Of a DNA stretch of 64,000 bases, positions 13,812-53,161 are shown one piece after another; the stretch's first letter is position 1; each line of letters begins with the position of its first letter. This DNA comes from Xestospongia bergquistia (Eukaryota > Porifera > Demospongiae > Haplosclerida > Petrosiidae), in contig OZ014412.1 of NCBI GenBank assembly GCA_963965975.1, forward strand, positions 3,040,501 through 3,104,500, written 5' to 3'. The notes under the pieces are model-generated. The model was not told where the DNA came from and made no database searches. It was given only the letters and a program-made list of their open reading frames with translations. Made by a program: the position numbers and the translations under genes.

Positions 13812-16616
13812 ATGCTGTTTCGTCTACTACTTGTTACGTTACTCCATACCGTTCCTCATGTTTCAGGTATGATAGATTTACACATAAAATTATAATATGC
13901 CAGTTTGGATACTATATAAGTCTATTATTAAATGTGTTTTAGACTCAAAGTTCATCATTATATTAGTAACAAAACAGCCACAGTTGCTAGGCACTTATAA
14001 TAATTTATTATATAGCTGTATATGTGGAGTTCATATTTACTCCATCTCCTAACATTGGAGCCAATCAACTAGCACATTATCAATGTTCAGTGAATTATAC
14101 TGGTGTGAGTATTATATGGAATATTAATAAGACAGTTTCTAATGATATTAGCAATATTCAACTTGACATTGTTACAATTGGAGCAGGATCAGCTAATTCC
14201 AGTCTTACCATACCTGGATATCCTCAATATAACAATACAATAGTGAGATGTTTTGCCTCAGGATTTATTGATGGTAATACCACTTACATTAACTTCAGTG
14301 AATCTACTCTGAGAATACAAGGTAACACACTCTCTGATATATTTCATTATATCTCTTCTCATTAGGTCAGCTAGCTGCTGTCAACAACTTGATATGTCAT
14401 GTACAAAGTCAATATATAAACTGTTCTTGGTCTCCTCCCTTCTCTCTGATATCCATACCTGGTTATATCATCAATGTTACTTATGGAGGAGAACTAGTTA
14501 CACAGAACACTACATCTTCTACAACATGGCAATACTGTCCCAGTAAATTTGGTAACTATACAATTAGTGTATCTGGTAGTAATTCAGCTGGAGAAGGAGA
14601 ACAAAAGATAAGAACAGAAGAAATACCAACAAGTATATAATAATTATAAACATTATTTATTTGTCAACTACTTGATACTCATAGATACAATTACTAACTG
14701 TGATATGACTCTTGAAAGATTGCTGAATGGTTCTTTTTTGGCCAATTATTTTGTAGAGGTAAATCTATTTATTTTATACCATTATTTTACATAACTATGA
14801 GTTCTCCCTAGACTATCTATTCTTTACTACCATCATCAGTACTAGTATCTATACAGTTAACTTCTTTTGATGGATATGTTTTTAATATTGACAGTAACAT
14901 ATTAAACGGGGCAATTAGTATTGATATACCCAGAAGACAAGAATGGACAGTTACTATGACCTTGAGATACTTTTGTTTATCTCTAGTAGTAAATTCACCG
15001 ACTAAAACAATTTGTAAGTCTATTTAATTCATGCTAATTTCATTAATAGTTTTAATTAGCTACATTTGATGTTCAAAATGGTGGTTTAACAATCATCAAT
15101 TCAACCATTGGAGAAGTTTGTTTTACTTGTTATTTTCTTGAGGGTAGTCAATCACAAGGATGTTATATTGAATATAACTCACTTATAACAGACTACTACA
15201 GTGGTAATATTACCATAGTGAGAACATCAGTAGATACTAGTACTGCTAGTAAATGTGTGACAGGAATATATACCAGTAGCTATAATGTGACATTTTATGA
15301 TATGGATTATAACAACGTACCATATACTACTGAGTATGCTGTAAAACTGACTAATCAATTAGTGACTGGACTATCTCCTTCTCCTTTGACATCCACTTCT
15401 ACGTCAACTATTACTGCAATACCATCATCATTATCTACATCTACAAACTCAACAAGTAGTAAGGATTATTGTTAATATATCTCATATATCTTATTACTAT
15501 TACAGTGGGAAATGTTAAAGAAGGTCTATTAGTAACAACTATTATTGGACTGTTTGTCTATAATATAATTATGTATTATTGTTATTAATTTAATTAATTT
15601 TTAAAAAAATAAATGACTGTAAAGTATGGTACATCTATTACTACTAGTAAATGTGTAAGCTTACTTGCTGGTGATTGTAATGTGACATTTTATGATATGG
15701 ATTATAACAATGTACCATATACTACTGAGTATGCTGTAAAACTGACTAATCAATTAATTACTGGACTATTTCCTTCTCCTGCTTCAAATACTATCCCAGC
15801 CTCTATATCAACTGTTGTCACATTACCATCTTCATCATGCATAGTCTGTACAAGTAGTAAGTCATTATATTATTGTTTATATAGTACATAGTTATGTTAC
15901 TACTACAGTGACTACTGTAGGAAGTGTTCAGAGAGGTCTGTTAGTAATAATAATTATTATTGGTATGTTACTCTATAATAATTATATCTTAATATTATTG
16001 GAAATTCTCTGTTATAGTTGGTGCAGTAATTGTATTTATCATTATTATTGTCATTGCTCTAATATTTATTGGTATAATCTTTCATAGAGTCAAGACAAAA
16101 AATTGTAAAAGTAATATAGCAATAATATTATGATTTCAGTGTTACATGTACCTAGGTAAGCAGATGTCATCACAGGACAATGAAGCTAATACGAATAACT
16201 CAGAACAATATAATAAGGTTAGAGTATTCAGGATTATTATATTATGTACTATGTGGAAAATATATAATGTCAGTTGTAGTATTATTGTGTTTACAATGGT
16301 ATTGTCAGCTGTCAAATTTAATGTTTGTTTTATGATATAACAAAATGTTCTAGTAATATCAAGTTATATTATTACTGATGTCTTTATTACTATTGAATGT
16401 TATTAAAGTAATTAATTGTATTGTTTGGTCTGGTTATTATAATAATTATTAACACTTCATGCTTCAATCTCCCCTTTGCATTAGATATCAACAACTGGTC
16501 AACTAAAGCAGCTTAACTATACTGATGTGACTCCATCATCTAATGGTCCTATTGCTCCTCCTAATCTCTATTCTACAGTACCTTATAGTACAGCAGTATA
16601 TGAGACTATTGTATAA
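13812..16616 (+). CDS. type D Ig-FN3 receptor with ITIM-like tail (545 aa)
   Basis: Exons 13812-13866, 14016-14321, 14366-14632, 14685-14758, 14812-15013, 15060-15458, 15909-15962, 16018-16104, 16156-16217, 16485-16616; phases agree throughout and no stop occurs before TAA. Signal peptide 1-18 (MLFRLLLVTLLHTVPHVS); Ig about 20-120 (HYQCSV...IIWNI...NSSLTIPGYP...VRCFAS); FN3 121-209 (NCSWSPPFSL, YTISVSGSNSAGEGE); type D module 210-434 (VCFTCYFLEGSQSQGCYIEY, NVTFYDMDYNN) with a Ser/Thr-rich stalk; TM about 440-475; tail 476-545 with LNYTDV, a true ITIM-pattern match, plus NLYSTV and AVYETI at the end. The path skips a second partial module (15613-15857). Reading on past 15458 instead gives a short form ending at 15588 with GLLVTTIIGLFVYNIIMYYC as a possible TM. 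Function inferred: surface recognition receptor with inhibitory-type signalling. Confidence 0.75.
15613..15857 (+). pseudogene. second, partial type D module exon
   Basis: Lies inside the 13.8 kb gene between its module and TM exons. Reads TVKYGTSITTSKCV, NVTFYDMDYNNVPYTTEYAV, LTNQLITGLF and a Ser/Thr stalk to the donor A|gtaagt at 15858. It lacks the CFTC half of the module and a convincing acceptor. An internal duplication that may be a cassette exon or junk. Confidence 0.5.
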
Positions 16617-16865
16617 CAATATCAGTCATCATATTAATAAATGGACAATCTAATGCCAGACTTAATCATAATGTACATGCTAGTACCTAACTTTATGATC
16701 ATACACAACATCCTCATTCTCATACTTCAACACCTATTCCACCTATGTATTCTACACTACCCACTAATAGTAACATGACAAGTCATATATTATCACCTGA
16801 CAGTCAGTACTTTACTTTGTCTAATAAAACAAGTGATAAATTAACTATTAAGAAGACAACTGGTC
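16617..16865 (+). pseudogene. remnant of the longer ITIM/death-domain tail exon
   Basis: Follows the TAA of the receptor's last exon. Reads IPPMYSTLPTNSNMTSHI, SPDSQYFTLSNKTSDKLTIK and ends KTTG at a donor (ACAACTG|gtcagt). The same text is in the tail exon at 9727-10108 and 32849-32974, so here a change near 16610 has cut the receptor short and left the rest of the exon outside the frame. Confidence 0.55.
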
Positions 16866-16908
16866 AGTAAACTTTACTATATAGTAGATATTATAATATA
16901 TTATTATG

Positions 16909-17189
16909 AGTTAACTCATAAAGATCTAGTTACTTATGTTGCTCCATATGTTACTACAAAACTACGAGAGATAGGTAATGCCCTAGCACTAACTCCACCT
17001 GAACTAGACGACATTGAAGAGAACAATCAAGGTATCATTGGTGTGTTCCAACTCTGGTATGAGACTAAGAGACGCCTGTATACCTGGGACACATTGTTAA
17101 TGATATTGAGATCACCAGCTATAAATGAAACTGAACTTGCTGACCAATTACTAAACAATACTAATGAAACTAATAAAACTAATGTGTGA
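16909..17189 (+). CDS. death-domain exon (best-preserved copy)
   Basis: Open to TGA at 17189: LTHKDLVTYVAPYVTTKLRE, IGNALALTPPELDDIEENNQ, GIIGVFQLWYETKRRLYTWD, TLLMILRSPAINETELADQL, then a short NETNKTNV end. About 93 residues match the death-domain pattern: hydrophobic helix 1, [W/L]-R-x-I-G-x-A-L-x-L, L-x-x-I-E, L-W, T-W-x-x-L-L-x-x-L, L-A-D-x-L. In known families death domains recruit adaptors or kinases through like-with-like binding. The usual AG acceptor (ataatag|AG in sister copies) is lost here (attatgAG), and the upstream receptor stops at 16616, so the exon is probably not used unless an alternative splice reaches it. Confidence 0.7.
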
Positions 17190-17772: not shown

Positions 17773-19935
17773 TTAATACTTTATCACACCATATGCAGCA
17801 CATGTCTTCATTTCTAGTTCAGTAGTACATAGTTTATTAGTGATAATATCAACATCCTCATATTGAGGTATAACTTGATGAATGACAGTATCTATTAATG
17901 GATTAACAGGATATGGTATAGTACCTACAATGGATAATACCATTTACAAACTATTCCCACTGTTAATATTACCTTGTCTCAGTGACTTAGTTCTTCTTAT
18001 CCAACATATCACTATATGTACTAGTACAGTACATACCATTATTAGAACTGACACACCCACTAGACTACCTGTATGTATATGAAAAAAATCAGGCTACAGA
18101 AAAATTTCAAATGGATTAATATACAACAACTAAACTAAAAACTTATCAATAGAATTAATGTCTCAAACATGTAGTAGTATGACATACTACATACATACAT
18201 AGTATGTAGTATGTCATTATATGTAGTAGTTAATATGAAAAACCATTATTTACTTGCTAATGTAGTTGTCAGTCCAATGTTATTAATTTGTGCATCTGTA
18301 TAACATCAAATTTATGTTAATAATATTAGGAGTGTATTGTTGGTACTTACTGTCTAAACAGTGACTAGCTTCTGTGGTCACTATTGCTGTAACCATGGAA
18401 AAAGAACATAATATAGTACTAGTTACTTTAAGATATTGATAAGTTGGTTCCAATCCAGTAATAGTGATATTATTAGATGATGCTGCCCAGTCATCAGATA
18501 ATGTATCCTCCTCTTCAATATCATATACATACATATTATATATACCACTAGGTAGATCATATGTACATCCAATTACTGTACTACTACATACTGGAGAACA
18601 CATCAATGATATGTTAGTACTATAGGTAGAGGAAGTTAATGAAATAAGACAACCTTTAACAATAGCTGCTCTTATAAAATGACAGCTGTAACATATTCTA
18701 CCAATATTACTTAGGTCATTATATAGGGTAGCTTCTGTAATATCATATGTACCTAATCAATGAGAAAATATTTATAAATCATTTATAATCTACTTACTTA
18801 GTACAGTTGATTGTGTTACATCAATAACAACTCCATTTGGTAATGATAAAGTCATTCTTGTCTTCCATATTTTATTCTCAGTTATATTTACAATATAGAT
18901 GGTAACAATAATAACTCCTTCATCAGTTAGAATTATTGGATTATTTAGAAATATAGAAGAATTATCTTCATTATATATAACAACATTTAGTTGAGCTGAC
19001 TCCACTGTATGTGGACATTGTTGAAGTTCCTAATATCACAAACATGAGGTATCTAGAGATATCATAATGTAACTTACCAAATCATATATTGTTATATTTA
19101 GTATCCAACTATTAACTGATCTGATAAAGGTAGTTGTTAAATTACTTATATTAACTAAAATAAAAATAACAAATTATACATTAGTAACCATAGTGATAAT
19201 ACCTGGTGGTACATGTAGTGATGTAGTAGTTATCTCTCCTTCTCCAGCTGAGTTATTACCAGCTACACTAATTGTATATGTACCAAATTGATTGGGACAG
19301 TAGTTGTATTGCCATGTTGTAGAAGATGTAGTGTTCTGTGTAACTAGTTCTCCTCCATAAGTAACATTGATGATGTAACCAGATATGGATACCAGAGAGA
19401 AGGGAGGAGACCAGGAACAGTTTATATACTGAGTTTGTACATGACATATCAAGTTGTTGACAGCAACTAGTTCACCTAATTAGAAGAGATATAATGACAT
19501 ATATCAGAGAGTGTGTTACCTTGTATTTTCAGAGTAGATTCATTGAATTTAAAATAAGTATTACCATTAACAAATCCTGAGACAACACATCTCATTACAG
19601 TATTGTTATATTGAGGATATCCAGGTATGGTAAGACTGGAGTTAGGTGATCCTGCTCCAATTGTAATAATACCAAGTTGAATAATCTTATTGTTAGTAGA
19701 ACCTGTTCCATTAACATACCAAGTAACACCCACACCAGTATGATCCACTGAACATTGGTAATGTGCTAGTTGATAGACTTCAATGTTAGGAGATGGAGTA
19801 AATATGAACTGAACAGCTATATAATAAAACTAAATAAAATAATACATTAGTTATTAATATAATCATACCTGTACATTTTAATTTAATAGATATTAGCAAT
19901 ATTAGTAGTAGCCATGTTGTCTTCACTAGATCCAT
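17773..19935 (-). CDS. type C Ig-FN3 receptor (545 aa)
   Basis: Minus-strand exons 19935-19869, 19816-19520, 19475-19203, 19154-19078, 19029-18798, 18752-18351, 18295-18254, 18068-17973, 17924-17773; total 1638 bases, all phases agree, no internal stop. Signal peptide 1-22 (MDLVKTTWLLLILLISIKLK); Ig 24-121; FN3 122-212; type C module 213-449 (QQCPHTVESAQLNVVIYNED, RICYSCHFIRAAIVKGCLIS, GCTYDLPSGIYNMYVYDIEE); stalk 450-463; TM about 468-488 (GVSVLIMVCTVLVHIVICWI); basic RRTKSLRQ; tail 495-545 with IPQYEDVDII and CAAYGVIKY. Compared with its paralogues, its module end (YQYLKVTSTILCSFSMV) and stalk exon are different and its exon 6 is 33 bases longer. Likely a surface recognition receptor; ligand unknown. 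Confidence 0.8.
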
Positions 19936-22390: not shown

Positions 22391-22478
22391 TATGTAGTTG
22401 TAGATTTAGTGATATGACTTCATGAACATATGTAACTATTGTTTTTTATTCAAGTTACATTCATTAATAGTTTTCATT

Positions 22479-22897
22479 AGCTACATTCAATGTACAAAAG
22501 GTTGTTTAATGGTCATGGACACTACTACTGGAGAAGTTTGTTTTACTTGTTATTTTATTGAGGGTAGTCAATCACAAGGATGTTATATTGAATATAACTC
22601 ACTTATAACAGACTACTACAGTGGTAATATTGCCATAGTGAGAACATCAGTAGATATCAGTACTGCTAGTAAATGTGTGACAGGAATATATACCAGTAAC
22701 TATAATGTGACATTTTATGATATGGATTATAACAATGTACCATATACTACTGAGTATGCTGTAAAACTAACTAATCAATTAGTGACTGGACCATCTCCTC
22801 CTCTTACTCCTACACTAACTACTATATCAAGTGTAACAATTATTATTACATCATCATCTCCATCATCTACTTCACTATGTAGAGACTATAATAATAT
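22479..22897 (+). pseudogene. orphan type D module exon
   Basis: Acceptor tttcattag then text matching the module exon of the 13.8 kb gene: GEVCFTCYFIEGSQSQGCYI, RTSVDISTASKCVTGIYTSN, NVTFYDMDYNNVPYTTEYAV, LTNQLVTG and a Ser/Thr stalk. A base is missing near 22500 relative to sisters (CAAAAGG for CAAAATGG), so the start of the exon and the rest are in different frames. No Ig/FN3 exon upstream and no TM exon downstream. Confidence 0.6.
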
Positions 22898-22959
22898 CAT
22901 CGCATTGTCATCTGGTCTATCTCCTTTGATAACTAATGTATTATTAAATTGACTGTTTA

Positions 22960-23490
22960 TATAGCTAATATAGTCAGAGCTAATATATTATAATGTTCAA
23001 AAAATAAAGTGCTTCTTATTATGTATTCACTTCAATCTGCCATCATATTAATCTTAGAGGTATTGGTACTGGGATAAATAGTAATAATAATAGTTCATAT
23101 CCTCATAAGGTATAGAAGGATCAATCCAAGCACTATCTTTATATACCAAAATAAATTCAACATAGAACAATAAGAGTTCAGTAACAAATAAACAAATAAC
23201 AATATTTTAAAAACAAAATTTTCAGCTGGTGTTAGTATTAAAAGTATTATAAATTATGATAAGGAATATCCCTAGTCAAAAAGGTATTTAGATACTTCAT
23301 TTATATTATTATATCAATTAATATAACTATCAGTTTAAATTAATTTTGTGAGTGTAAAAAGTGAACAATAATATTTTGTTATAATAGATAACAATTGATT
23401 TATTGATCTACTGGTATATGATAAAGTTCATACAAAAGACAATTTGAGTTCTTTCACTAACACAAAAACAGAGATACATACATTGTTATT
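22960..23490. other. spacer, partly duplicated
   Basis: 23100-23480 repeats the spacer at 17470-17770 (shared TAGAACAATAAG, GATAACAATTGATTTATTGA). No gene. Confidence 0.5.
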
Positions 23491-23496
23491 GATCAA

Positions 23497-23790
23497 CGTT
23501 TTATCACACCATATGCAGCACATGTGTTCATCTCTAGTTCAGTAGTAGGTAGTGTATTAGTAATCATATTAACATTCTCATATTGAGATATAACTTGATG
23601 AGGGACTGTATCTGTTAGTGGATTAATAGGAGATGGCACAGTACCTATAATGGATAATACCATTCACAAACTATTCCCATTGTTAGTATTACCTTGTCTC
23701 AGTGACTTAGTTCTTCTTATCCAACATATCACTATATGTACTAGTACAGTACATACCAGTTATTAGAACTGACACACCCACTACTCTATT
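23497..23790 (-). pseudogene. orphan type C tail and TM exons
   Basis: Minus strand: part of the TM exon (GVSVLI, then VCTVLVHIVICWIRRTKSLR) near 23790-23693, then the tail exon 23646-23497 with GTVPSPINPLTDTVPHQVI, SQYENVNMITNTLPTTELEM and CAAYGVIK. The TM exon has an extra base at about 23760 (accagttattag against accagtattag) and its start is lost; the ectodomain is absent. Confidence 0.6.
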
Positions 23791-24083: not shown

Positions 24084-25956
24084 ATGGCAGCCTTACTAAC
24101 TTTCTTAATTCTGATCTTGTGTTCCAATGTAAAAGGTATGAGAACATAAGTATAACATATGTATGTAACAGTAGCTGTTCCACCTTTATTTAATGGCTAG
24201 TTAGGAGCTTACATACCTATTTCCCATACATGTAGTTATAAAATATACAAATGTTTATTCAAACTAACCAAAGCCTTTTATTTTATTATATAGCTGTTCA
24301 GTTTATATTTACTCCATCTCCTAACATTGGAGTCTATCAACTAGCACATTACCAATGTTCAGTGGATCATACTGGTGTGACTGTTACTTGGCTTGTTAAT
24401 GAAACAGCTTCTAATGATGATAATATTATCAAGCTTGGTATTGCTACAAGAGGAGCAGGATCATCTAACTCCAGTCTTACAATACCTGGATACCCTCAAT
24501 ATAACAATACAGTAGTAAGATGTAATGCATTTAGATATTTGGGTGATAATATGATTTATCACAACTTCAATGAATCTACTCTGAGAATACAAGGTAACAC
24601 ACTCTTTGATATATGTCATTATATCTCCTCTCATTAGGTCAACTAGCTGCTGTCAACAACTTGATATGTAATGTACAAAGTCAGTATATAAACTGTTCCT
24701 GGTCTCCTCCCTTCTCTCTGGTATCCATACCTGGTTATATCATCAATGTTACTTATGGAGGAGAACTAGTTACACAGAACACTACATCTTCTATAACATG
24801 GCAGTACAACTATTGTCCCAGTCAATTTGGTACATATACAATTAGTGTAGCTGGTAATAACTCAGCTGGAGAAGGAGAGATAACTACTACATCACTACGT
24901 GTACCAGGAGGTAAAATTTCCTATCAAACTGATTGAACATCTTATAATGACAGATATCATCATTTCTTGCCATTTGACAATTAAAAGATTAACAGATGCC
25001 ACATATTTTTTCACCTATATTGTAGAGGTATATCATCTCTCATAGTTTATTTATGGAATTCAATTTTTATTTAGACTAAGTATTCTCTATTGCCATCATC
25101 AACATCTATACATTTAACAAACAGTGCTGGAATTACATCTGCTTTTGATGGAAAAGCCGTTGTTGATGGAAATAAGCTTATAGGAAAGATACATATTAAA
25201 ATGACAAGAAGACAAAAGTGGAATGCCGTTTTGATGCTTGGAAATAACTGTAAATTAAGGACAAAAACATTCAGTAAGTTCATCTAATTATATATTTTAA
25301 GACTTCTATAAATGTCCATTAGCTACATTTGATGTTCAAAGTGGTAATCTTACCGTCAAGAACTCTACCACTGGAGAAGTTTGTTTTACTTGTCACTTTG
25401 TTGAAGGTGGTCAGGGAAAAGGATGTTATATTGAATATAACTCACTTATAACATACTATTATAGTGGTAATATTACCATAGTGAGAACATCAGCAGATAA
25501 CAGTACTGCTAGTAAATGTGTGACAGGAATATATACCAGTAACTATAATGTAACATTTTATGATATGGATTATAACAATGTACCATATACTACTGAGTAT
25601 GCTGTAAAACTCATTAATCAATTAGTGACTGGACTATCTCCTATTCCTACTCTAACTACTGCATCAAGTGTACCAGTTATTAATACATCCTCATTAATAA
25701 CTAATGTTATATCATCATCTCCATCACCTACTACAGTATGTACAGACTGTATTAATAGTAAGTTATTACTAATGTTTTCTTAATATAACTCATACTATTA
25801 CTACAGTAGATAATATCAAAGATTCATCAGTTAATGGTAAGTTTATTTATAAATGTAGTGCTCTTATTATACAAGTTCTTTGCAGTTGCCACTCCTGTTG
25901 TCGCTATTCTTGTTGTGTTAGCAGTATTGAGTAACATTGTAATATTGTACTTATAG
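24084..25956 (+). CDS. type D Ig-FN3 receptor, tailless (477 aa)
   Basis: Exons 24084-24135, 24294-24593, 24638-24910, 24954-25027, 25075-25273, 25323-25757, 25807-25836, 25886-25956; 1434 bases, all phases agree. Signal peptide 1-17 (MAALLTFLILILCSNVK); Ig 18-117; FN3 118-208; type D module 209-444 (QKWNAVLMLGNNC, VCFTCHFVEGGQGKGCYIEY, NVTFYDMDYNN) with stalk; TM 455-477 (VATPVVAILVVLAVLSNIVI) ending at TAG straight after LYL. The frame past the TAG stays open for 17 codons (KREKVVCVPNEKVHNKE). The product would be a receptor with no cytoplasmic tail, a decoy or a partner of a signalling chain, unless the stop is bypassed. Confidence 0.75.
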
Positions 25957-26089
25957 AAAAGAGAAAAAGTTGTCTGTGTGCCTAATGAAAAGGTTCACAA
26001 TAAAGAATAAACAAAGTGAAAGTGTAATAATGTGGATAATGTCTTGTTTATTATGTTATGTAATTACTTTTAAATATTGTGTATTTTAT

Positions 26090-26490: not shown

Positions 26491-27410
26491 CTATTTTATC
26501 ACACCATACGCAGCACATTTGTTCACCTCTAGTTTAGTAGTAAGTCAATGAGGAATAGTATATGTTAGTGGATTAACAGGAGATGGTACAGTATCTATAA
26601 TGGATAATATTATTTACAAACTATTCCCACTGTTAGTATTACCTTGTCTCAGTGACTTAGTTCTTCTTATCTGACATATCACTATATGTACTAGTACAGT
26701 ACATACCAGTATTAGAACTGACACACCCACTAGACTCTCTGTGTAACATAAATATTTTTGAACTAAAATAATAATTATTATATAAGATAAGTAAAATTAT
26801 TTATTATTTAAATAACAAAAGTTTTGTTTTTGTTTCAAAGTAATTATTAGAATAATTTGTTACCTCCTAATGTCAGTAGTAGACATCAGTAGCTGATTCA
26901 GAAGAGGATAGCCACCATGTCGTGGCCATGTTATGAAAGGAACGATCAGCTATGTCAAAACTCTTGCCTCCTAATGCAGCCATCATTACACTTTTAGTTT
27001 ATATCTTTATAAAATGTATTGACAATTAAAAAATAATATAATAATCACAAAATAACACTAACACTCACCTAAACAATTACTTGTAGTTAAACAAAGATTT
27101 GTTGTTTCTATTACAGTAATAGTGATATTAGTAGATGATATTGTCCAGTCATCTGATAATCTATCCTCCTCTTCAATATCATATACATACATATTATATA
27201 TACCACTAGGTAGATCATATGTACATCCAATTACTGTACTACTACATACTGGATAACACATCAATGATATGTTACTACTGTAGGTAGAGGAGGTTAATGA
27301 AATAAGACAACCTTTAACAATAGCTCCTCTTATAAAATGACAGCTGTAACATATTCTACCAATATTACTTAGGTCATTATATAGGGTAGCTTCACTAATA
27401 TTGAATGTAC
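26491..27410 (-). pseudogene. type C receptor remnant (module, TM, tail)
   Basis: Minus strand: module exon 27410-27069 (SLMCYPVCSSTVIGCTYDLP, YVYDIEEEDRLSDDW; its end is replaced by VIETTNLCLTTSNCL), an expanded pre-TM segment near 26990-26867, TM exon 26738-26643 (GVSVLILVCTVLVHIVIC) and tail 26594-26491. The tail has lost about 45 bases, giving a stop after PLTYTIPH and leaving CAAYGVIK out of frame. No Ig/FN3 exons upstream before 28 kb. Confidence 0.6.
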
Positions 27411-27414
27411 CTCA

Positions 27415-28448: not shown

Positions 28449-30547
28449 ATGGATCTAGTGAAGACAACATGGCTACTACTGATATTGTTAGTATCTATTA
28501 TATTAAAATGTACAGGTATGATTATATTAATAACTAATGTACTATTTTATTTAGTTTTATTATATAGCTGTTCAGTTCATATTTACTCCATCTCCTAACA
28601 TTGGAGTTTATCAACTAGCACATTACCAATGTTCAGTAGATTATACTGGTGTGACTGTTACTTGGAATATTAATGGCACAGGTTCCACTAACAATGAAAT
28701 TATCCAACTTGGTATTGTTACAAATGGAGCAGGATCACCTAACTCCAGTCTTACCATACCTGGATACCCTCAATATAACAATACAGTAGTGAGATGTAAT
28801 GCTTTTGGGTCTGTAGATGGTAGTAATTATTTCAACTTTAGTGAATCTATTCTGAGAATACAAGGTAATACACTCTCTGATATATCTAATTATTTCTCCT
28901 CTCATTAGGTCAACTAGATGCTGTCAACAACTTGATATGTCATGTACAAAGTCAGTATATAAACTGTTCCTGGTCTCCTCCCTTCTCTCTGGTATCCATT
29001 CCTGGTTATATCATCAATGTTACTTATGAAGGAGAACTAGTTACACAGAACACTACATCTTCTACAACATGGCAGTACAACTATTGTCCTAGTCAATTTG
29101 GTAACTATACAATTAGTGTATCTGGTAATAACTCAGCTGGAGAAGGAGAGATAAATACTACATCACTACATGTACCAGGAGGTATTATCACTATGGTTAC
29201 TAATATATAATTTATTACTTTCATTTAGTAAATATAAGTAATTTAACAACTACCTTTATCAGATCAGTTAATAGTTGGATACTAAATATAACAATATATG
29301 ATTTGGTAAGTTACATTATGATATCTCTAGATACCTCATGTTTGTGATATTAGGAACTTCAACAATGTCCACATACAGTGGAGTCAGCTCAACTAAATGT
29401 TGTTATATACAATGAAGACAATTCTTCTATATTTCTAAATAATCCAATAATTCTAACTGATGAAGGAGTTATTGTTGTTACAATCTATATTGTAAATATT
29501 ACTGAGAATAAAATATGGAAGACAAGAATGACTTTATCATTACCAAGTGGAGCTGTTATTGATGTAACAGAATCAACTGTACTAAGTAAGTACATTATAA
29601 ATAACTTATAACTATTTTCTCATTCATTAGGTACATATGATATTACTGAAGCTACCCTATATAATGATCTAAGTAATATTGGTAGAATATGTTACAGCTG
29701 TCATTTTATAAGAGGAGCTATTGTTAAAGGTTGTCTTATTTCATTAACCTCCTCTACCTACAGTACTAACATATCATTGATGTGTTCTCCAGTATGTAGT
29801 AGTACAGTAATTGGATGTACATATGATCTACCTAGTGGTATATATAATATGTATGTATATGATATTGAAGAGGAGGGTAGATTATCAGATGAGTGTGCAA
29901 TATCATCTACTAATATCACTATTACTGGATTGGATCCATCCCCTCCAGTGACCTTTATATCATGTCTTCAAGTAACAGTTACTACTAGTACTTGTTTTGG
30001 TAAGAACTAACAGTATTTTTTTATTATATTATGTTTTATTTCTTTGTGATATGATATGTTTTATAGATATGCAAGTTTGTAAGGACACAAATAGTGTAAT
30101 GACAGCTGCATTAGGAGGTAATGAATAATTCCACTTGACATTTTGAAGCAATAACAAAATCTTTGTTATAGAAGTTAACATGATATTGAAAGATGAATAA
30201 TTTTTATTTACATATCTTAACTAAAATAATTGTAAAATTTATTTTGCATAGGAAGTCTAGTGGGTGTGTCAGTTCTAATACTGGTATGTACTGTATTAGT
30301 ACATATAGTGATATGTTGGATAAGAAGAACTAAGTCACTGAGACAAGGTAATACTAACAGTGGGAATAGTTTGTAAATGATATTATCCATTGTAGGTACT
30401 GTACCATCTCCTGTTAATCCACTAACAGATACTGTCCCTCATCAAGTTATACCTCAATATGAGGATGTTGATATTATAACAAATACACTATGTACTACTG
30501 AACTAGAGATGAACACATGTGCAGCGTATGGTGTGATAAAATATTAA
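28449..30547 (+). CDS. type C Ig-FN3 receptor (537 aa), reference copy
   Basis: Exons 28449-28515, 28568-28864, 28909-29181, 29229-29305, 29354-29585, 29631-29999, 30067-30117, 30252-30347, 30396-30547; 1614 bases, all phases agree. Signal peptide 1-22 (MDLVKTTWLLLILLVSIILK); Ig 23-121 (HYQCSVDYTGVTVTWNINGT, SSLTIPGYPQYNNTVVRC); FN3 122-212 (INCSWSPPFSLVSIPGYIIN, NNSAGEGEI); type C module 213-438 (ESAQLNVVIYNEDNSSIFLN; RICYSCHFIRGAIVKGCLIS; CTYDLPSGIYNMYVYDIEEE; STNITITGLDPSPP); stalk 439-455; TM about 460-480; RRTKSLRQ; tail 487-537 with PVNPLTDTVPHQVIPQYEDV and CAAYGVIKY. Nine short exons, introns 36-134 bases. ATG chosen because it gives a clean signal peptide and the same start is used by three paralogues. 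Confidence 0.82.
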
Positions 30548-32802: not shown

Positions 32803-32848
32803 CTAATATAATAAATATAATATCTACTATATAGTAAAGTTTACTGAC

Positions 32849-34530: not shown

Positions 34531-36396
34531 ATGGCAGGACCTCAGATGGGAGTCACATGTTCTCTCTTCTTGATAATGTTTTCCTTCAATCTTACAAGTA
34601 TGGATTGTTCTGCTTTATTTAATTGTTACCTCCAGTGATAGACTTAAACAATGTAGGAGCCTTACTTATCATATATATAGTTATACAAATGTATCTTCAA
34701 ACTAACAAACTCTTTTTATTTTATTATATAGCTGTCCAGGTCACATTTGTTCCATCTCCTAACATTGGAGTCTATCAACTAGCACATTACCAATGTTTAG
34801 TGGATAGTACTAGTGTGAGTATTGCATGGCTTGTTAATGGAACAGGTTCTGGTCATAATGACATTATTCAACTTGGTATTATTACAAATGGAGCAGGATC
34901 ATCTAAGTCCAGTCTTATAATACCTGGATATCCTCAATTTAACAATACAGAAGTGAGATGTATTGCCTCAGAATCTGACAATATAAATAATTATATTAAC
35001 TTGGGGAACTCTATTCTGATTATACAAGGTAACACACTCTGATATATGTCATTATATCTCCTCTCATTAGGTGAACTAGCTGCTGTCAACAACTTGATAT
35101 GTCATATAGAAAGTCAGTATATAAACTGTTCCTGGTCTCCTCCTTTCTCTCTGGTATCCATACCTGGTTATATCATCAATGTTACTTATGGAGGAGAACT
35201 AGTTACACAGAACACTACATCTTTTACAACATGGCAGTACTGTCCCAGTCAATTTGGTACATATACAATCAGTATAGCTGGTAATAACTCAGCTGGAGAA
35301 GGAGAGATAAGTACTACATCAGTTGTAGTACCAGAAAGTAAATGATGTAGACATTTTGATTTATCAACTACTTGATATTAATAGATACAATTACTAACTA
35401 TAATGTGACTCCTAAAAGATTATTAAATGACACATATCTGATCAACTATATTGTAGAGGTATGATAACTTCTCTTATATAAATATCATATACTTTTACAT
35501 ATATTCTATTTAGACTGTATATTCACTACAGCCATCATTAGTATTTATCAATGTAACTAATAGTAATGGAACTACATTTATTTTTAATGGAAGTGTACAT
35601 GATATTGTTGGAAATAAGTTAATTGGAAATATAAGTATTGACATGACTGACAGACAAAAATGGAGTATTATTTTGACATTAAGATACAACTGTAGATTTC
35701 TTAATTCACCAGTTAAACTATTTTGTAAGTTTGTTTAATCATATTAATTGTATTAATATTTTTATTAGCTACATTTGATGTTCAAAATGGCAGCTTAATA
35801 GAGGAGTCTGGAGAAGTTTGTTTTACTTGTTATTTTCTTGAGGGTAGTCAATCACAAGGATGTTATATTGAATATAACTCACTTATAACAGATTACTACA
35901 GTGGTAATATTACCATAGTGAGAACATCAGTAGATACCAGTACTGCTAGTAAATGTGTAACAGGAATATATACCAGTAACTATAATGTGACATTTTATGA
36001 TATGGATTATAACAATAGTATTTACATGGAGGAGTATGCTGTAAAACTGACTAGTCAGTTAGTGACTGGATTATCCCCTACTTCTCCTACACTAACTACT
36101 ATACTTACTTCTACTCCAACGTCCATATCTGGTTTACCTTTATCAGCTAATGTTATATCAACATCTCCATCACCTACTACAGTATGTACAGACTGTATTA
36201 ATAGTAAGTTATTAATAATGTTTTCTTAATATAATTCATACTATTATTACTATAGGAGATAATTCATCTGTTAATGGTAAGTTTATTTATAAATGTAATG
36301 CTCTTATTATACAAGTTCTTTGTAGTTGCTGGTCCTGTTGTTGCTATTCTTGTTGTGTTAGCAGTATTGAGTAACATTGTAATATCATACTTATAG
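34531..36396 (+). CDS. type D Ig-FN3 receptor, tailless (480 aa)
   Basis: Exons 34531-34597, 34732-35028, 35071-35337, 35385-35458, 35514-35724, 35769-36203, 36256-36276, 36326-36396; 1443 bases, all phases agree. Signal peptide 1-22 (MAGPQMGVTCSLFLIMFSFN); Ig 23-121 (HYQCLVDSTSVSIAWLVNGT); FN3 122-210; type D module 211-450 (VCFTCYFLEGSQSQGCYIEY, DYNNSIYMEEYAVKL); stalk; TM 458-480 (VVAILVVLAVLSNIVISYL) then TAG. As at 25956 the frame stays open after the stop (KRENVVCEPNEKVHNKKV). A remnant tail exon end and a death-domain exon follow at 36768 and 36841, suggesting that the ancestor carried them. Confidence 0.76.
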
Positions 36397-37670: not shown

Positions 37671-37673
37671 TAG

Positions 37674-38939
37674 CTCCTCTTATAAAATGACAGCTGTAAC
37701 ATATTCTACCATTATTACTTAGCTCATTATATAGGGTAGCTTCAGTAATATCATATGTACCTAATCAATTAGAAAATATTTATAAGTCATTTATAATGTA
37801 CTTACTTAGTACAGTTGATTGTGTTACATCAATAACAGCTCCACTTGGTAATGATAAACTCATTTTTGTCTTCCATATTTTATTCTCAGTTATATTTACA
37901 ATATAGATGGTAACAACAATAACTCCTTCATCAGTTAGAATTATTGGATTATTTAGAAATATAGAAGAATTATCTTCATTGTATATAACAACATTTAGTT
38001 GAGCTGACTCCACTATATGTGGACATTGTTGAAGCTCCTAATATCACAAACATGAGGTATCTAGAGATATCATAATGTAACTTACTAAATCATATATTGT
38101 TATATTTAGTATCCAACTATTAACTGATCTGATAAAGGTAGTTGTTAAATTACTTATATTAACTAAAATGAAATAATAAATATTACATTAGTAACCATAG
38201 TGATAATACCTCCTGGTACATGTAGTAATGTAGTACTTATTTCTCCTTCTCCATCTGAGTTATTACCAGCTACACTAATTGTATATGTACCAAATTGACT
38301 GGGACAGTACTGCCATGTTGTAGAAGATGTAGTGTTCTGTGTAACTAGTTCTCCTCCATAAGTAACATTGATGATATAACCAGGTATGGATACCATAGAA
38401 AAAGGAGGAGACCAGGAACAGTTTATATACTGACTTTGTACATGACATATCAAGTTGTTGACAGCAGCTAGTTGACCTAATGAGAGGGGATATAATGACA
38501 TATATCAGAGAGTGTGTTACCTTGTATTCTCAGAGTAGATTCACTGAAATTGAAATAACTATTACCATTCACAATTCCAAATGCACTACATCTCACTACT
38601 GTATTGTTATATTGAGGATATCCAGGTATGGTAAGACTGGAGTTAGGTGATCCTGCTCCATTTGTAACAATACCAAGTTGAATAATCTCATTATTATTAG
38701 AACCTGTTTTATTAACAAACCAAGTAATAATCACACCAGTATGATCCACCGAACATTGGTAATGTGCTAGTTGATAGAGTCCGATTTTTGGAGATGGAGT
38801 AAATATAAACTGAACAGCTATATAATAAAACTAAATAAAATAGTACATTAGTTATTAATATAATCATACCTGTACATTTTAATATAATAGATATTAACAA
38901 TATCAGTAGTAGCAGCGATGCTGTCTTCACTAGATCCAT
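37674..38939 (-). pseudogene. type C receptor truncated in its module
   Basis: Minus-strand exons 38939-38870, 38817-38521, 38476-38210, 38162-38086, 38037-37806 are complete and in frame: signal peptide (MDLVKTASLLLLILLISIIL), Ig (GVIITWFVNKTGSNNNEI), FN3 (INCSWSPPFSMVSIPGYIIN) and the first half of module C. Exon 6 begins at 37760 (YDITEATLYNELSNNGRICY) but homology ends abruptly at about 37674, so the rest of the module, TM and tail are missing. If expressed, only a secreted Ig-FN3 protein could result. It is the duplicate of the receptor at 42558-44653. Confidence 0.72.
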
Positions 38940-42557: not shown

Positions 42558-44653
42558 TTAATATTTTATCACACCATATGCAGCACATGTGTGTATCTCT
42601 AGTTCAGTAGTAGGTAGTGTATTAGTAATCATATCAACATTCTCATATTGAGGTATAACTTGATGAGGGTCAGTATCTGTTAGTGGATTAACAGGAGATG
42701 GTACAGTACCTACAATGGATAATACCATTTACAAACTATTCCCATTGTTAGTATTACCTTGTCTCAGTGACTTAGTTCTTCTTATCCAACATATCACTAT
42801 ATGTACTAGTACAGTACATACCAGTATTAGAACTGACACACCCACTAGACTACCTATACAAAATAAATTTAACAATTATTTTAGTTTAGATAAGTAAATA
42901 AAAATTATTCATCTTTCAATATCATGTTAATTTTTATAACAAAGATTTTGTTATTGCTTCAAAATGTAGAGTAGAATAATTTATTACCTCCTAATGCAGC
43001 TGTCATTACACTAATTGTGTCCTTACAAACTTCCATATCTATAAAACATATCATATCACAAAGAAATAAAACATGATGTAATAAAAACAAAATACTGTTA
43101 GTTCTTACCCAAACAAGTACTAGTAGTAACTGTTACTTGAAGACACGATATAAAGGTCACTGGAGGAGATGGTTCTAATCCAGTAATAGTGATATTTGTA
43201 GATGATATTGCCCAGTCATCTGATAATGTATTCTCCTCTTCAATATCATATACATACATATTATATATACCACTAGGTAGATCATATGTACATCCAATTA
43301 CTGTTCTACTACATACTGGGGAACACATCAATGATATGTTAGTACTGTAGGTAGAGGAAGTTAATGAAATAAGACAACCTTTAACAATAGCTCCTCTTAT
43401 AAAATGACAGCTGTAACATGTCCTACCAATATTACTTAGGTCATTATATAGGGTAGCTTCACTAATATCATATGTACCTAATGAATGAGAAAATATTTGT
43501 AAGTCATTTATAATCTACTTACTTAGTACAGTTGATTGTGTTACATCAATAACAGCTCCACTTGCTAATGATAAAGTCATTCTTGTCTTCCATATTTTAT
43601 TCTCAGTTATATTAACAATATAGATGGTAACAACAATAACTCCTTCATCAGTTAGAATTATTGGATTATTTAGAAATATAGAAGAATTATCTTCATTGTA
43701 TATAACAACATTTAGTTGAGCTGACTCTACTGTATGTGGACATTGTTGAAGTTCCTAATATCACAAATATGAGGTATCTAGAGATATCATAATGTAACTT
43801 ACCAAATCATATATTGTTATATTTAGTATCCAACTATTAACTGATCTGATAAAGGTAGTTGTTAAATTACTTATATTAACTAAAATGAAATAATAAATAT
43901 TACATTAGTAACCATAGCGATAATACCTGGTAGTACATGTAGTGATGTAGTAGTTATCTCTCCTTCTCCAGCTGAGTTAATACCAGATACACTAATTGTG
44001 TAGTTACCAAATTGACTGGGACAGTACTGCCATGTTGTAGAAGATGTAGTGTTCTGTGTAACTAGTTCTCCTCCATAAGTAACATTGATGATATAACCAG
44101 GTATGGATACCAGAGAGAAGGGAAGAGACCAGGAACAGTTTATATACAGACTTTCTACATGACATATCAAGTTGTTGACAGCAGCTAGTTCACCTAATGA
44201 AAGCAGATATAATGAAATATATCAGAGAGTGTGTTACCTTGTATTCTCAGAGTTGATTCACTAAAATTAAAATAATTATTATTATTGACAAATCCTGCAG
44301 CAATACACTTCACTACTGTATTGTTATATTGAGGATATCCAGGTATAGTAAGATTTGATTGTTGTGGTCCTCCAGTTGTAAATATACCGAGTTTGATGAT
44401 CTCGTTATGACCATAACCTGTCCTATTAATATTCCAAGTGATACCCACACCAGTATGATCCACTGAACATTGGTAATGTGCTAGTTGATAGACTCCAATG
44501 TTAGGAGATGGAGTAAATATGAACTGAACAGCTATATAATAAAACTAAATAAAATAGTACATTAGTTATTAATATAATCATACCTGTACATTTTAATATA
44601 ATAGATACTAACAATATCAGTAGTAGTAGCCATGTTGTCTTCATTAGATCCAT
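42558..44653 (-). CDS. type C Ig-FN3 receptor (535 aa)
   Basis: Minus-strand exons 44653-44584, 44531-44238, 44193-43927, 43879-43803, 43754-43523, 43477-43109, 43038-42988, 42853-42758, 42709-42558; 1608 bases, all phases agree. Signal peptide 1-23 (MDLMKTTWLLLLILLVSIIL); Ig 24-121 (GVGITWNINRTGYGHNEIIK); FN3 122-210; type C module 211-436 (RTCYSCHFIRGAIVKGCLIS, SPVCSRTVIGCTYDLP); stalk 437-453; TM about 458-478; tail 485-535 with IPQYENVDMITNTLPTTELE and CAAYGVIKY. Its module and tail are nearly identical to the 28.4 kb receptor while parts of Ig differ (FTTGGPQQSNLTIPG lacks GAGS), suggesting exchange between copies or selection on Ig. Confidence 0.82.
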
Positions 44654-48674: not shown

Positions 48675-50841
48675 TTATCTACGATATCTCCATTTATGGT
48701 TAACAGTACCATATGCTGGACATTGTTCCATTTCTAAGTACTCAGGTATTGGAGGGGGCTCCTCATCATTAATAGCCATTGCATTGACAACTTCTACTCT
48801 TGGTAAAGTAGCATCACCTATAAGTAGTAACTGACACACCCACATGTTATTAATTAATTAGTTACCTCTATGTTGTACTGAGATACAACATATGTAGATT
48901 AGAACTAGAGATAGCAGTATTGATAATATCAGGAGAACAAAGACACACCCACCAACTGCAGTAGATAAATATCATGCTCTTAATTTAAGGACTAATGGTT
49001 GAACCATTGATATCAAAGTTTAATGGACAGTACATGATGTAAATGATATTTAGTTTATACAAGTATAGAGAAATTTTGAAAAGCAAGAGGTTATTACAGT
49101 ACATAGTTCTACCTGATATAATAATAATAGAGTTTACATTGATGGTTGTAGAGATTGTCACTGTAGTTGTGACAGATTGTGTCATAGTTGTTTCCATAGT
49201 AACTGCAAGAGTAGAGTAAGAGATAGTAAGGACATAAAAACTTGAAGACAAACAACAAAAGAGATTAGATTAAAGAAAACATTATAATAGTCTCTTATCT
49301 CTCTTACCTGGAACTACTGTTAATGTAGTAGATAGTACAGTATCCATTGGTTTGTTGGTAGTAGTAGGGATACTTCCAAGAACTTCTAGTGAAGTTAACA
49401 TTACGGCTGGTACTTTATTGTTTTTCATGACTGAACCAGATTGACTCTCTAAGTCATATATGTAGAGTGTATAATTCCCATTTAATAAACCAGTTAGACA
49501 GGTTTTTGATTCACAACACATTGACATATTCAGATAGATCTCCTTTGTAACATTAGTATCTGATTCATTATGTATTAGTATAATATAAGCTCCTATTGCT
49601 TTACTGTTATAACGATATGTTAGTAATATACACACCTTTCCTCTATCAATATCAGTGACTGAAATATTTTGTATATCATGTGTATCTGATTAATGAGAGA
49701 AGATTATAATAACATTCTGTTATGATAGATCTAGTATAGACTTACTTATTGTAAATAAACTTGATTCCATTTCTTGTCCATTACTGTACTCTATTACAAA
49801 ACTTAATGTTAGAAGTCTGTTCTCTGGTAATAATAATTTAGCTGTCATTATAACAGTAGAATATAGTGTTGTAGTATAGTTGATGTACTGAGTATTATTA
49901 AGAGATATTGTAGAACAGTTAGTGATACTTTCACAAATTTTAAACTGTGTATTATCAATTGAACTATTGATACAAAGACCCTGTTGTATGAAATGGAAAA
50001 TGAATAGGGCACATAAACAACTTACTGTTAAGTTAAAGACAAGTTCCCATTCCTCTCCATTCCAGTAGTAGTTTTGAATAATGGAATTATTTATATCTAA
50101 ATACAATAAGAAGTATGTAAGGCCCTATGGTATAGTTAGGTGATATACCTCTTGTGTAAGATACATTCAAAGATGTCCCAGTTCCTTCATCAACTTCATT
50201 TAGAGCTGATATTTCTATAGTATAAGTTTCACTAAGTACTAGTGGTACAAACTTATAATATGTTGTGTTAATAAATACAGACATTAATGGAACATCTCTT
50301 GTAGTAACAGTAATATTGTAACCTAAGATAGGTACCCCAGCAAGGGAATACGGAGACACCCATGACAGTGATATAGAACATGGGTCTTGTTTAGTAATAA
50401 TGAGATCTTCAACTTCAGCTAGAAGTCCTAAACAGATACACAAAGCAGTGATGATATAGAATGTTGCATCTAGACTATACCTTGAATCAGTAAGAGAACT
50501 TGTTCATATAACAATACTTTAAAATTAGTACCATTTAACAGATAGCATGTAAAAGTTGACTCATTATATTCTGGTACTACTGCCTTTACCAGTACTTTAG
50601 AAACAGACCCTCCTTCAACTAGTTGTTCATTGAGAACTGATGCAGCAATATTACTACTAAAAAACCATATGATATCTAAACTGGAGTCATTAGTACCACA
50701 GGAGAACATAACATCAGAACCAATTGATACATTTTGTGATCTTGGTACAACATTTAATAGTCCTGAAGAATTCTCTGATATAACTGGCTTTAGTAGACAA
50801 AGATACAAAACTATTAGATTGACTGGATGGGAATACTCCAT
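48675..50841 (-). CDS. diverged Ig-FN3 receptor with YxxM tail (548 aa)
   Basis: Minus-strand exons 50841-50481, 50427-50149, 50096-50026, 49980-49746, 49685-49308, 49202-49113, 48955-48866, 48817-48675; 1647 bases, all phases agree. Signal peptide and Ig share one exon (MEYSHPVNLIVLYLCLLKPV; VMFSCGTNDSSLDIIWFFSS; STFTCYLL). FN3 121-213 (PCSISLSWVSPYSLAGVPIL GYNITV, YTIEISALNEVDEGTG). Module 214-441 of the same plan as types C and D (RGKVCILLTYRYNSKAIGAY, CLTGLLNGNYTLYIYDLESQ). Thr-rich stalk 442-471, TM about 474-496 (VFVLLILSILLSLVLIYICC), tail 501-548: EEPPPIPEYLEMEQCPAYGT. YLEM fits the PI3K-SH2 pattern YxxM, PPPIP could bind SH3, and CPAYGTV parallels CAAYGVI of the array genes. Confidence 0.8.
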
Positions 50842-50939
50842 TCTGTCTTTAGTTGAAGAGATTGTTATTTTAATAAATCATCACAGTTATTACAAACAAA
50901 AATGATAAAACGACAATAATTAAACAAATTAAATTTAAA

Positions 50940-53161
50940 TTAAATTTGTGTTTCTTCCTGTATTCTATTAACAGCTTCATTTGGCTGTATAGATAGTGTA
51001 ATAATGTAATGAACAAAAGTAATTGAATACCTCAGCCCATGCTTGGATTTCTTCTCCATTGCTTTCTAAATAAAAATCAACAGTATTAGTAGACATGTCA
51101 TGTAATCATACCTGGGGCAACACTAGATTTCCTTTTAATACAATAACATACTGTAAATATTGTGAAAAAAATAGTTACTTAAGAATGAACTGTGTTTGAC
51201 TTACCAAAAGAAATAATAGGAGTAGCAATTATCACTACTACTACTACTACTGCTACTAAAACAATTACAGCAATAGTTTCTGATGGTATACCCCTAGAAA
51301 TTGGTGTCTCTGGTGGTATTGATGGGGTACCCTTAGAAGTTGGTGTATCTGATGGTATTGATGGTATATCCCTAGAACCTGGTGTCTCTGATGTTAAGTT
51401 AAAAGAAGTCATATAATAAATTAATACTTACCTGTTGGTCTTACGATAATAATAGATGAATCAATACTTGATATCTCTCCATATACAGTGATATCATGTA
51501 ACTGTACACCTGGACCAGATTTGTCTTCTATTAAATTCCCCACCTTGTCGTAGCCATTGAGAAGGCAATCATGAGATTTATCACCAAAAGATGGACTACA
51601 CCAAAATTTGAGAAAAAGCTTATTAAAACCTTCTATGTTAAACTCTCTAGGTTCTTCTGAATCACAAAATAACTTAATATGACTACCAGTAGCTACACTG
51701 CCTTTAGCATATTCTAGCAACAAGCAAACTTTTCCATTTTGATCTTTTCTGTCATATATCTTCTGAAGATCATAGGTACCTTATTAAAATATATAATATG
51801 TACATCATTACGTGTTTACACTCACTTAGAAGAACATATCCAGTAACAACTGTAAAATTGTCATAATCGTACACAACAGTGAAGTTATAAAATTGATCTT
51901 CAGGAAGAGGCATTAATGCTGTTAAAACTGTTATATTGCTAGCAGTATGACTGGAAACATTGCTAGTATTATAGCACGATCCATCTTGTTTGCAGACTTT
52001 AAAGATGATTTCTTGGTTACTTTTGTTTTTACATAAGATATCATTCTATATTATAAACAAGAGTATTAAAGAACTGACTAATAAACTACAAGAATATTTA
52101 CGCTAATGTGAGCTTGCACATTCCATTTGTTGCCTTCTCTTGAGACATCTACTTGACTGATATTGTAATCTATAAAAATAGATAAAAAGTTATTATGTTG
52201 TAAGAAAACATTCTCACTTTCATTAAAATCTGTTGAATTAATAAATATAATAGATTTGTTTCCTATTCCAGCACCATTAACAGCTGCAATAGAAATGTTA
52301 TAATCATAACCAAATGGTATTTGAATGCTAGCAGAATTTGCAGAGGTTGACAAACGTATTGTTGTGGATATATTAGTGATATTGATGTTATAGCCCAGTA
52401 TTGGAACTCCTTTTAATGTGAAGGGTGGGTTCCAATAGACTTCAATAGTACAGGGATCCTTCCGAGTAACATTTAGTTCAATTGAACTAAGAAGACCTAT
52501 AAATTGGACATGCAGTGATGTGCCAAGAATTTAATAATTATGGATACCTTGTATGAGTATTATACCTTCATTACTTGGATATACTTGATCATGTTGATCA
52601 GGATACATTGTAAAACATCGAATAGAAGTGTTATTGTACTCAATCTTATGAACACTACTTGTTAAAGTGACATTGATGTTGTTATTGTTGCTTGGTTTAT
52701 AATGAACTGGCAATAACTTTGTTTTCCACCTTGTGTTCATGGATATATCAGCTTTAATACATGTAAAAGTGACACTCCCTCCAAGATAAGTAGTAGACAC
52801 TTTTGGAATTAACACTGGATATAGACCTGTAATATGTCAAATAAAATAAATATAACTTATGTAGCAACTAATAAATTCTATGTTACAATATTTATTCAGG
52901 CTCCAAGTTTACATGAAAGTGAAAATCAAGAATAGAAAATGCACATACATGACAAGTATCCATGACAACTTTGGGTATAGTTTCTCATTAAAATAAGTAC
53001 AACCATTATCAGTTAGAGAGAACAGTTTACAGATACACTTACTTAAATTTTGAGCCATTGTTAGGTGTATTATACTTGCTAGCACAATAAAAACAATAGG
53101 AAGTAGTCTAATATAAAAGATATCATGTACAGTAGTATATTACAACTCACTGGGTATCCAT
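50940..53161 (-). CDS. diverged Ig-FN3 receptor without tyrosine tail motifs (523 aa)
   Basis: Minus-strand exons 53161-53151, 53107-53043, 52826-52548, 52496-52218, 52169-52102, 52045-51826, 51779-51432, 51387-51205, 51150-51112, 51065-51031, 50984-50940; 1572 bases, all phases agree. Signal peptide 1-22 (MDTQLLPIVFIVLASIIHLT); Ig 26-118 (SVTFTCIKADISMNTRWKTK); FN3 119-211 (PCTIEVYWNPPFTLKGVPIL, NISIAAVNGAGIGN); module 212-423 (NGKVCLLLEYAKGSVATGSH); a stalk of three repeats of about 14 residues (ETPGSRDIPSIPSD type) and TM about 466-485 (AVIVLVAVVVVVVIIATPII); short tail CYCIKRKSS...EEIQAWAE, PNEAVNRIQEETQI. The tail has no YxxI/V motif. Gene order and intron phases match the 48.7 kb gene, 99 bases downstream, so they are an old tandem pair. 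Confidence 0.8.

Follow-up and report, generated by a model that had tools for sequence, protein, structure and literature searches.

In vertebrates, the paired receptors (KIR, LILR, PIR and SIRP) carry near-identical ectodomains on different signalling tails and are encoded in gene clusters, their activating partners having a short tail and a charged transmembrane (TM) segment. The combination of an immunoglobulin (Ig) ectodomain with a C-terminal death domain occurs in the UNC5 netrin receptors, which are not known as a diversified cluster, and sponge aggregation factors are secreted proteoglycan core proteins without an Ig-FN3-TM layout. Sponges show remarkable specificity in self/nonself discrimination, as stated in an excerpt of PMC5450542. 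Among non-bilaterians, the closest case by analogy is probably the Alr family of Hydractinia, for which excerpts of PMC11999971 report 41 members. Here we describe a cluster of Ig-FN3 receptor genes in the sponge Xestospongia bergquistia (GCA_963965975.1; 146.46 Mb in 21 contigs), as seen from a window of 64,000 nucleotides on contig OZ014412.1 (C2), positions 3,040,501-3,104,500. We consider it fairly likely, judging from sequence, that this locus belongs to a giant germline-encoded family of diversified paired recognition receptors.

Each of these systems resembles the locus in part. Like Hydractinia Alr (PMC11999971, in the same excerpts), it holds clustered, expanded receptors of the Ig superfamily in a non-bilaterian; unlike Alr, it joins one Ig domain to FN3 and two further modules, has death-domain tails and reaches about 119 open Ig exons, the two being compared by description rather than by sequence homology. 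With the vertebrate paired receptors it shares an ectodomain used across tails, a clustered arrangement, ITIM-type motifs (immunoreceptor tyrosine-based inhibitory motifs) and SHP phosphatases in the genome, but the alternative tail here has a death domain and the ectodomain layout differs. Sponge Ig-TIR receptors also have an Ig ectodomain but, as far as the text of PMC12909245 available in part describes them, they are few (six genes in Dysidea avara) and end in a TIR tail; TIR had no match among the proteins scanned here. The aggregation factors likewise are candidate self/non-self molecules, highly polymorphic according to the title of a cited paper. UNC5 shares the Ig ectodomain and the C-terminal death domain, whereas neither TSP1 nor ZU5 had a match among the proteins scanned here. 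Among the titles and abstract openings returned by searches of open-licence PMC papers, none describes a clustered Ig-FN3 recognition locus of a sponge.

Throughout the window, self-comparison of the open frames and a tblastn exon map, by which the exon families were defined, reveal repeated exon families in constant order. Gene models spliced by rule (GT-AG introns, fixed phases) give the layout signal peptide, Ig (one exon), FN3 (one exon), E4+E5, E6, TM and tail, and every modelled junction is phase 1 except E4/E5, which is phase 0. Since the best non-self match of an Ig exon within its own genome has an E value of 1.7e-53, chance is excluded as the cause of this repetition. A sequence-only reading, made from the letters of the window, had proposed a tandem group of receptors with one architecture, in both orientations and with conserved exon order and phases, and this is what we find: nine receptors share the layout between 13812 and 53161 (Table 1), seven of a main family (starts on the + strand at 13812, 24294, 28449 and 34732; on the - strand at 19935, 38939 and 44653) and two divergent. 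Its further claim of eight full open frames beside a truncated ninth copy stands only in part. Nine receptors are present, gene 6 is truncated, and genes 2, 4 and 7 have complete ATG-to-stop frames (527, 538 and 536 codons, including the stop), but in genes 3 and 5 the frame ends at a stop immediately behind the TM segment, gene 1 has a stop in its tyrosine-rich tail exon, before the death-domain exon, and gene 3, although its individual exons are each open, could not be joined into one frame because its E4 exon was not found in the tblastn map. Rule splicing gives open ectodomains in genes 1 and 5. A search of the main family for signal exons found them for genes 1, 2, 4, 6 and 7 and not for genes 3 and 5. 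Where more than fifteen orphan exons had been noted, our hand count gives 14 unattached exon matches inside this interval and 16 outside it.

These genes make up a small part of a single cluster on C2, at about 2.74-4.36 Mb, so that the earlier description of clustered, fast-copying Ig-FN3 receptors with tyrosine tails was correct on a scale far larger than the window. The Ig exon has at least 150 matches in the genome (150 scored of 162 candidates), of which 14 contain stops, 17 are short and about 119 are full-length and open; this last figure, like the orphan, death-domain and second-family FN3 figures, is a hand count. The matches lie at C2 2.74-4.36 Mb save for one on C14 and five on C9, and the full-length open exons are on C2 apart from the one on C14. 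Two types of receptor can be told apart by their E4-E6 modules. For type B, exon E5 has 54 matches among 56 candidates; 42 of the matches span nearly the whole exon with at least 76% identity, and 40 of the 42 are on C2. For type A, exon E6 has at least 150 matches (150 scored of 367 candidates), and 89 matches on C2, some partial, were taken as type A, both lists (89 and 42) being hand-picked from the search matches. For the death-domain exon there are at least 104 matches (150 of 355 candidates scored), and at least 26 on C2 cover at least 68 of the 81 residues without a stop. In the cluster's left half, 28/29 type B genes lie on the - strand and 24/32 type A genes on the + strand; in its right half, 12/13 type B and 55/57 type A genes lie on the + strand. 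Across 264 kb, 11 type B copies contain exon E5, and eight of them have complete frames. The cluster holds well over a hundred cell-surface receptor genes, and the binding domain appears to be swapped between genes with different signalling tails.

The domains themselves are divergent but recognizable. In the Ig exon, C22, W33 and C77 are invariant in all nine window copies and kept in 47-48 of 48 in a wider set; two of the nine are only 21-22% identical to the first copy. This cysteine pair and core tryptophan place it in the Ig superfamily. A profile search matched 26 PDB sequences, 23 of them named Ig-domain proteins, weakly and with E values from 8e-5; Pfam Ig_3 gave a weak match (0.014) in one divergent gene, and Pfam Ig gave none in the main-family proteins scanned. 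Both divergent genes pass the Pfam fn3 cut-off of 25 bits (27.5 and 31.6 bits), the FN3 of the three main-family proteins scanned falls below it, and an FN3 profile matches FN3 chains (titin, ROS, FN3con and others), at best with 4.4e-9. Profile search found no relative of the E6 module, only chance-level GTPase matches, and E4+E5 had no Pfam match above the cut-off. For the death-domain exon, one of the two copies scanned matches PF00531 at 0.13, below the cut-off, and the other does not match. The exon aligns with ten relatives at other genomic sites, three of the six scanned pass the Pfam Death cut-off, one of these aligns with the cluster exon at 36% over 74 residues, and a joint profile matches FADD at 1.4e-6. 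Homology to PF00531 thereby points to a death domain.

The Ig exon behaves as a cassette shared between receptor types. This was assessed in 45 genes labelled A or B by the E4-E6 module (labels of L039-L058 assigned by hand), which remain of 48 Ig exons once three are set aside, one lacking a partner FN3 and two of unclassified type. By Ig, the closest relative carries the gene's own label in 23 of 45 cases, against 23.3 by chance (p=0.59); by FN3, it does so in 43 (p=0.0002). The three closest Ig pairs all join an A to a B gene, differing by 1.0, 2.0 and 2.0% in the codon alignment (97.7-99.0% identical pairwise), and their FN3 exons differ by 8-15%. In two of these pairs the 30 nucleotides 5' of the exon are 53-66% identical; the third pair shares its upstream sequence. 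Among 13 type B genes, nucleotide diversity (pi) is 0.023 in the 50 nucleotides 5' of the Ig exon versus 0.163 within it, and the same 50 nucleotides differ at 0.523 among 13 type A genes; a mixed set of 40 copies (upstream diversity 0.376) is uninformative because the upstream sequences of the A genes are unrelated. Near-identical Ig domains on A and B genes suggest a paired-receptor layout, the label here being the E4-E6 module, with the tails of L044, L047 and others unread. Gene conversion may be the mechanism of this sharing.

Diversity is also concentrated on the Ig exon. It was measured in separate rule-spliced subsets of 10, 42 and 26-28 copies; the sets for substitution ratios, tails, Ig face, recombination and cassette behavior hold rule-spliced, stop-free exons of at least 85% coverage, and the FN3 set for omega and M8 holds the 44 of 51 exons that have over 70% identity to the reference. 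No other shared exon of the type B genes is as diverse as Ig, which also exceeds its adjacent introns: across 10 intact genes the signal exon has a pi of 0.033, the intron after it 0.024, Ig 0.165 and the Ig-FN3 intron 0.104; downstream, FN3 has 0.071, E4 0.015, E5 0.042, E6 0.080, the TM exon 0.022 and the tail 0.091. Over 42 copies, Ig pi is 0.175 (bootstrap 0.165-0.186), versus 0.076 in the 3' intron and 0.083 in FN3. Variable residues alternate along stretches near W33 and C78, where, on the canonical Ig topology, we take them to point outward on the GFCC' face. Omega, the ratio of nonsynonymous to synonymous change, is 0.90 at outward C/F-strand sites, 0.30 at outward B/E sites and 0.05-0.30 in the core, with 0.60 for the C' region and 0.80 for the FG loop; between paralogues it is 0.44 for Ig and 0.52 for FN3. 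Coding constraint is clear, with one Ig face free to change, and the variation probably lies mainly on that face.

The two types also differ in their tails. Type B genes end in a short exon; among the 31 short tails listed, two are cut short, and in the 29 full ones each of two tyrosines is kept in 28. Within type A, A1 genes reuse a related TM exon followed by a tyrosine tail, and A2 genes have a different TM segment, a tyrosine-rich exon and then the death domain. One A2 locus, L037 (C2:3,522,560-3,525,176), stays open from its Ig exon to the stop that follows the death domain, its signal exon not being found in the 560 bases upstream, and its tail has six YxxL/I/V/M motifs, including two strict ITIMs ([SIVL]xYxx[ILV]). 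Searches of the genome with SH2 and PTP (protein tyrosine phosphatase) domains gave seven SH2-SH2-PTP sets each in one open frame, as judged by equal frame length. The array on C3 also holds one interrupted set, and a set at C6 0.200 Mb is distributed over different frames. One set, when translated, matches PTPN11 (SHP-2) at 1e-153; NCBIfam gave no match for this protein. Phosphatases of the SHP-2 type are expanded in this genome, and they may dock on the receptor tails. Separately, more clustered matches to the tyrosine phosphatase domain lie at C9 2.0-2.15 Mb, C10 0.97-1.25 Mb, C5 0.44-0.78 Mb and C2 6.83-6.93 Mb.

These elements can be assembled into a mechanism. A complete gene would encode a type I membrane protein with a ligand-binding Ig domain, FN3, two stalk modules, a TM segment and a signalling tail. 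The Ig exon, bounded by phase 1 on both sides, would be copied between genes and so place near-identical binding domains both on receptors that end in short tyrosine tails (B and A1) and on receptors whose tyrosine motifs are followed by a C-terminal death domain (A2). Once the variable Ig face met a ligand, whether self/allo or microbial, the tail tyrosines would be phosphorylated, and the phosphorylated tails could dock SH2 proteins such as the SHP-2-type phosphatases. The A2 receptors could in addition recruit death-domain adaptors of the FADD type, and we infer that the two tail kinds have opposing outputs. By analogy, this would be a paired-receptor plan in which a death domain replaces the vertebrate activating arm.

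Several observations weigh against this interpretation. First, a strict ITIM is present in only 9/29 short tails, and the link between receptor tails and SHP-2 is one of co-occurrence. Second, mean FN3 distances are equal within and between labels (0.123 each, p=0.44), so that the FN3 type signal comes from nearest neighbors, and recombination within the Ig exon gave no signal (p=0.26). Third, E7 and its introns (pi 0.32-0.34) and the flanks (0.41-0.54) exceed Ig in the 10 type B genes, and the Ig-FN3 intron is variable too (0.076-0.104). Finally, selection speaks softly: even the outward face, at 0.90, does not rise above 1, the comparison of M8 with M8a for Ig is weak (p=0.0014, 5% of sites at omega 2.4) and is matched by FN3 (p=0.0011), so the signal is not Ig-specific, pairwise ratios of nonsynonymous to synonymous divergence (dN/dS) are 0.76 for Ig and 0.75 for FN3, and those of the TM exon and short-tail exon are 1.19 and 1.10. 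Strong positive selection on the Ig exon was considered and is unsupported by these values. The recognition role put forward in the sequence-only reading is supported in part, by Ig-focused diversity, Ig exchange between tail types and ITIM-type tails beside an SHP-2 expansion; between paralogues Ig omega is 0.44, and positive selection is weak and shared with FN3. Taken together, the cluster looks like a large system for recognition of self/non-self or of microbes.

Which of these ligands is bound is a matter on which we can only be tentative. The receptors may be innate sensors of microbes or symbionts, with Ig domains diversified against microbial surface molecules and one binding site placed on inhibitory-type and death-domain tails; we regard this as possible without favoring it. 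The same Ig on A and B is the paired-receptor pattern, and published abstracts and excerpts of PMC12909245 report sponge expansions of the SRCR and NLR families. Alternatively, the locus may be an allorecognition (histocompatibility) complex, in which the Ig domains bind self/allo ligands, possibly including one another, and fusion or rejection depends on the paired tails. Confinement of the cluster almost entirely to one contig, high Ig diversity, and ITIM-type and death-domain tails suited to a decision to reject are all consistent with this, and clustered Alr genes of the Ig superfamily serve this function in Hydractinia (excerpts of PMC11999971 and PMC13119343). However, according to an excerpt of PMC5450542, genes for adhesion, apoptosis or aggregation factors were not significantly enriched in Amphimedon grafts, and we judge this explanation somewhat unlikely.

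A third possibility is that this is a general adhesion or developmental receptor family, expanded by duplication and now largely redundant or decaying. The many orphan exons and broken copies would fit, as would dN/dS near 1 in the TM, tail and E6B exons and an outward Ig face that is close to neutral. But most of the scored Ig matches are full-length and open, the Ig core is nearly invariant under an overall omega of 0.44, and the Ig domain is shared between receptor types, all of which make this account improbable. A reading of the copies as mostly dead was rejected on the same omega and on the about 119 of 150 scored Ig matches that are open. Duplicated haplotypes inflating copy number in the assembly are very improbable, since 28/28 compared Ig exons encode distinct proteins and mean Ig divergence is 17.5% over 42 loci, even though some equal-score matches lie at fixed spacing (an Ig pair at 30.8 kb, and death-domain matches about 65.4 kb apart at C2 4.07-4.16 Mb, which are a recent tandem duplication or an assembly duplication).

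If paired recognition receptors are the correct interpretation, exchange of Ig exons between tail types would put paired-receptor logic outside vertebrates. With a mapped cluster, defined tails and an SHP-2-type set, the genetic basis of recognition becomes directly testable. The organization may also extend further along C2. Relatives of the FN3 of gene 9 lie at 0.44-0.95 and 1.87-2.37 Mb, and a fetched member of this second family (L073) has an Ig-like frame and an FN3 frame; its FN3 has at least 103 matches (150 of 268 candidates scored), at least 63 of which are near full length and on C2, with 77-100% identity and one stop-containing copy. More speculatively, and with considerable doubt, the first 4.4 Mb of C2 could be the sponge's counterpart of the major histocompatibility complex or leukocyte receptor complex (MHC/LRC), with at least two Ig-FN3 families, in which exon-bounded gene conversion would move Ig cassettes among receptors with opposing tails (expanded SHP-2 set versus death domain), and specificities private to each individual would be wired to tolerance and killing. 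Under this speculation, an animal that lacks adaptive immunity would possess a germline recognition system built on cassette exchange.

Table 1. Receptor genes and unattached exons of the window (numbered from its first letter), and related genes elsewhere in the genome
Feature	Position	Strand	Composition and remarks
Gene 1, type A	13812..17189	+	SP (signal peptide) 13812-13866, Ig 14016-14321, FN3 14366-14632, E4 14685-14758, E5 14812-15013, E6 15060-15470, TM ~16020-16103, Tyr-rich tail pieces 16485-16613 and 16697-16864 (tail exon broken by stop), death-domain exon from 16908
Gene 2, type B	17773..19935	-	Complete frame: SP, Ig, FN3, E4, E5, E6, TM, short Tyr tail
Gene 3, type A	24294..25957	+	Ig 24294-24593, FN3 24638-24910, E5 25075-25273, E6 25323-25757, TM from ~25885, then stop
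Gene 4, type B	28449..30547	+	Complete frame, 537 aa: SP 28449-28515, Ig 28568-28864, FN3 28909-29181, E4 29229-29305, E5 29354-29585, E6 29631-29999, E7 30067-30117, TM 30252-30347, tail 30396-30547
Gene 5, type A	34732..36394	+	Ig 34732-35028, FN3 35071-35337, E4 35385-35458, E5 35514-35724, E6 35769-36203, TM from ~36322, then stop
Gene 6, type B	37672..38939	-	Truncated in E6 (ninth, broken copy)
Gene 7, type B	42558..44653	-	Complete frame
Gene 8, divergent	50940..53161	-	Ig 52549-52827, FN3 52228-52497, E6 51424-51780, TM near 51205-51280; by eye
Gene 9, divergent	49112..50841	-	Ig 50482-50763, FN3 50153-50428, E6 ~49306-49689, then Thr-rich exon; by eye
Orphan Ig, TM, E6, tail and death-domain pieces	4730..10600	-	Outside 13812-53161
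Orphan E6A, TM and tail exons	22413..23760	mixed	E6A on +, TM and tail on -
Orphan tail, TM and E6B exons	26494..27411	-	
Orphan death-domain and Tyr-tail exons	32582..32975	-	
Orphan E6B exon	63092..63472	+	Near window end
Second Ig-FN3 family	C2 0.44-0.77, 1.87-2.37 and 10.74-10.77 Mb		Member L073
SH2-SH2-PTP sets	C3 1.265-1.283 Mb (array); C3 0.916 Mb; C7 8.318 Mb		Five in the array (L072), one at each other site

Other features of the window stand beside the receptors. Gene pieces resembling TRAPPC4/sybindin occur on the - strand at 33423-33542, 40274-40408, 41384-41611, 45381-45533 and 45677-45910; they are repeated, perhaps having been copied along with the receptor cluster, and their match to PF04099 came from a composite query assembled from exon fragments of different copies. 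Pieces of a tyrosine kinase C-lobe at about 58208-59030 (+) are a fragment or the end of a kinase gene, one piece matching PF07714 and the others being recognized by eye. Two related open frames lie at 3009-3863 and 4206-4712 (-), the first with a weak match to a Reelin subrepeat (0.0036, below the cut-off). Scans of the window with Rfam and for tRNA genes gave no matches, and long low-complexity repeat arrays with open frames are found at 40413-41277 (+) and 31816-32542 (-). Elsewhere in the genome, the best matches to a silicatein query were two cathepsin L genes, and a silicatein-like gene family, which fits a demosponge, is present on C9; one of its copies looks silicatein-like but lacks a clear active-site serine.

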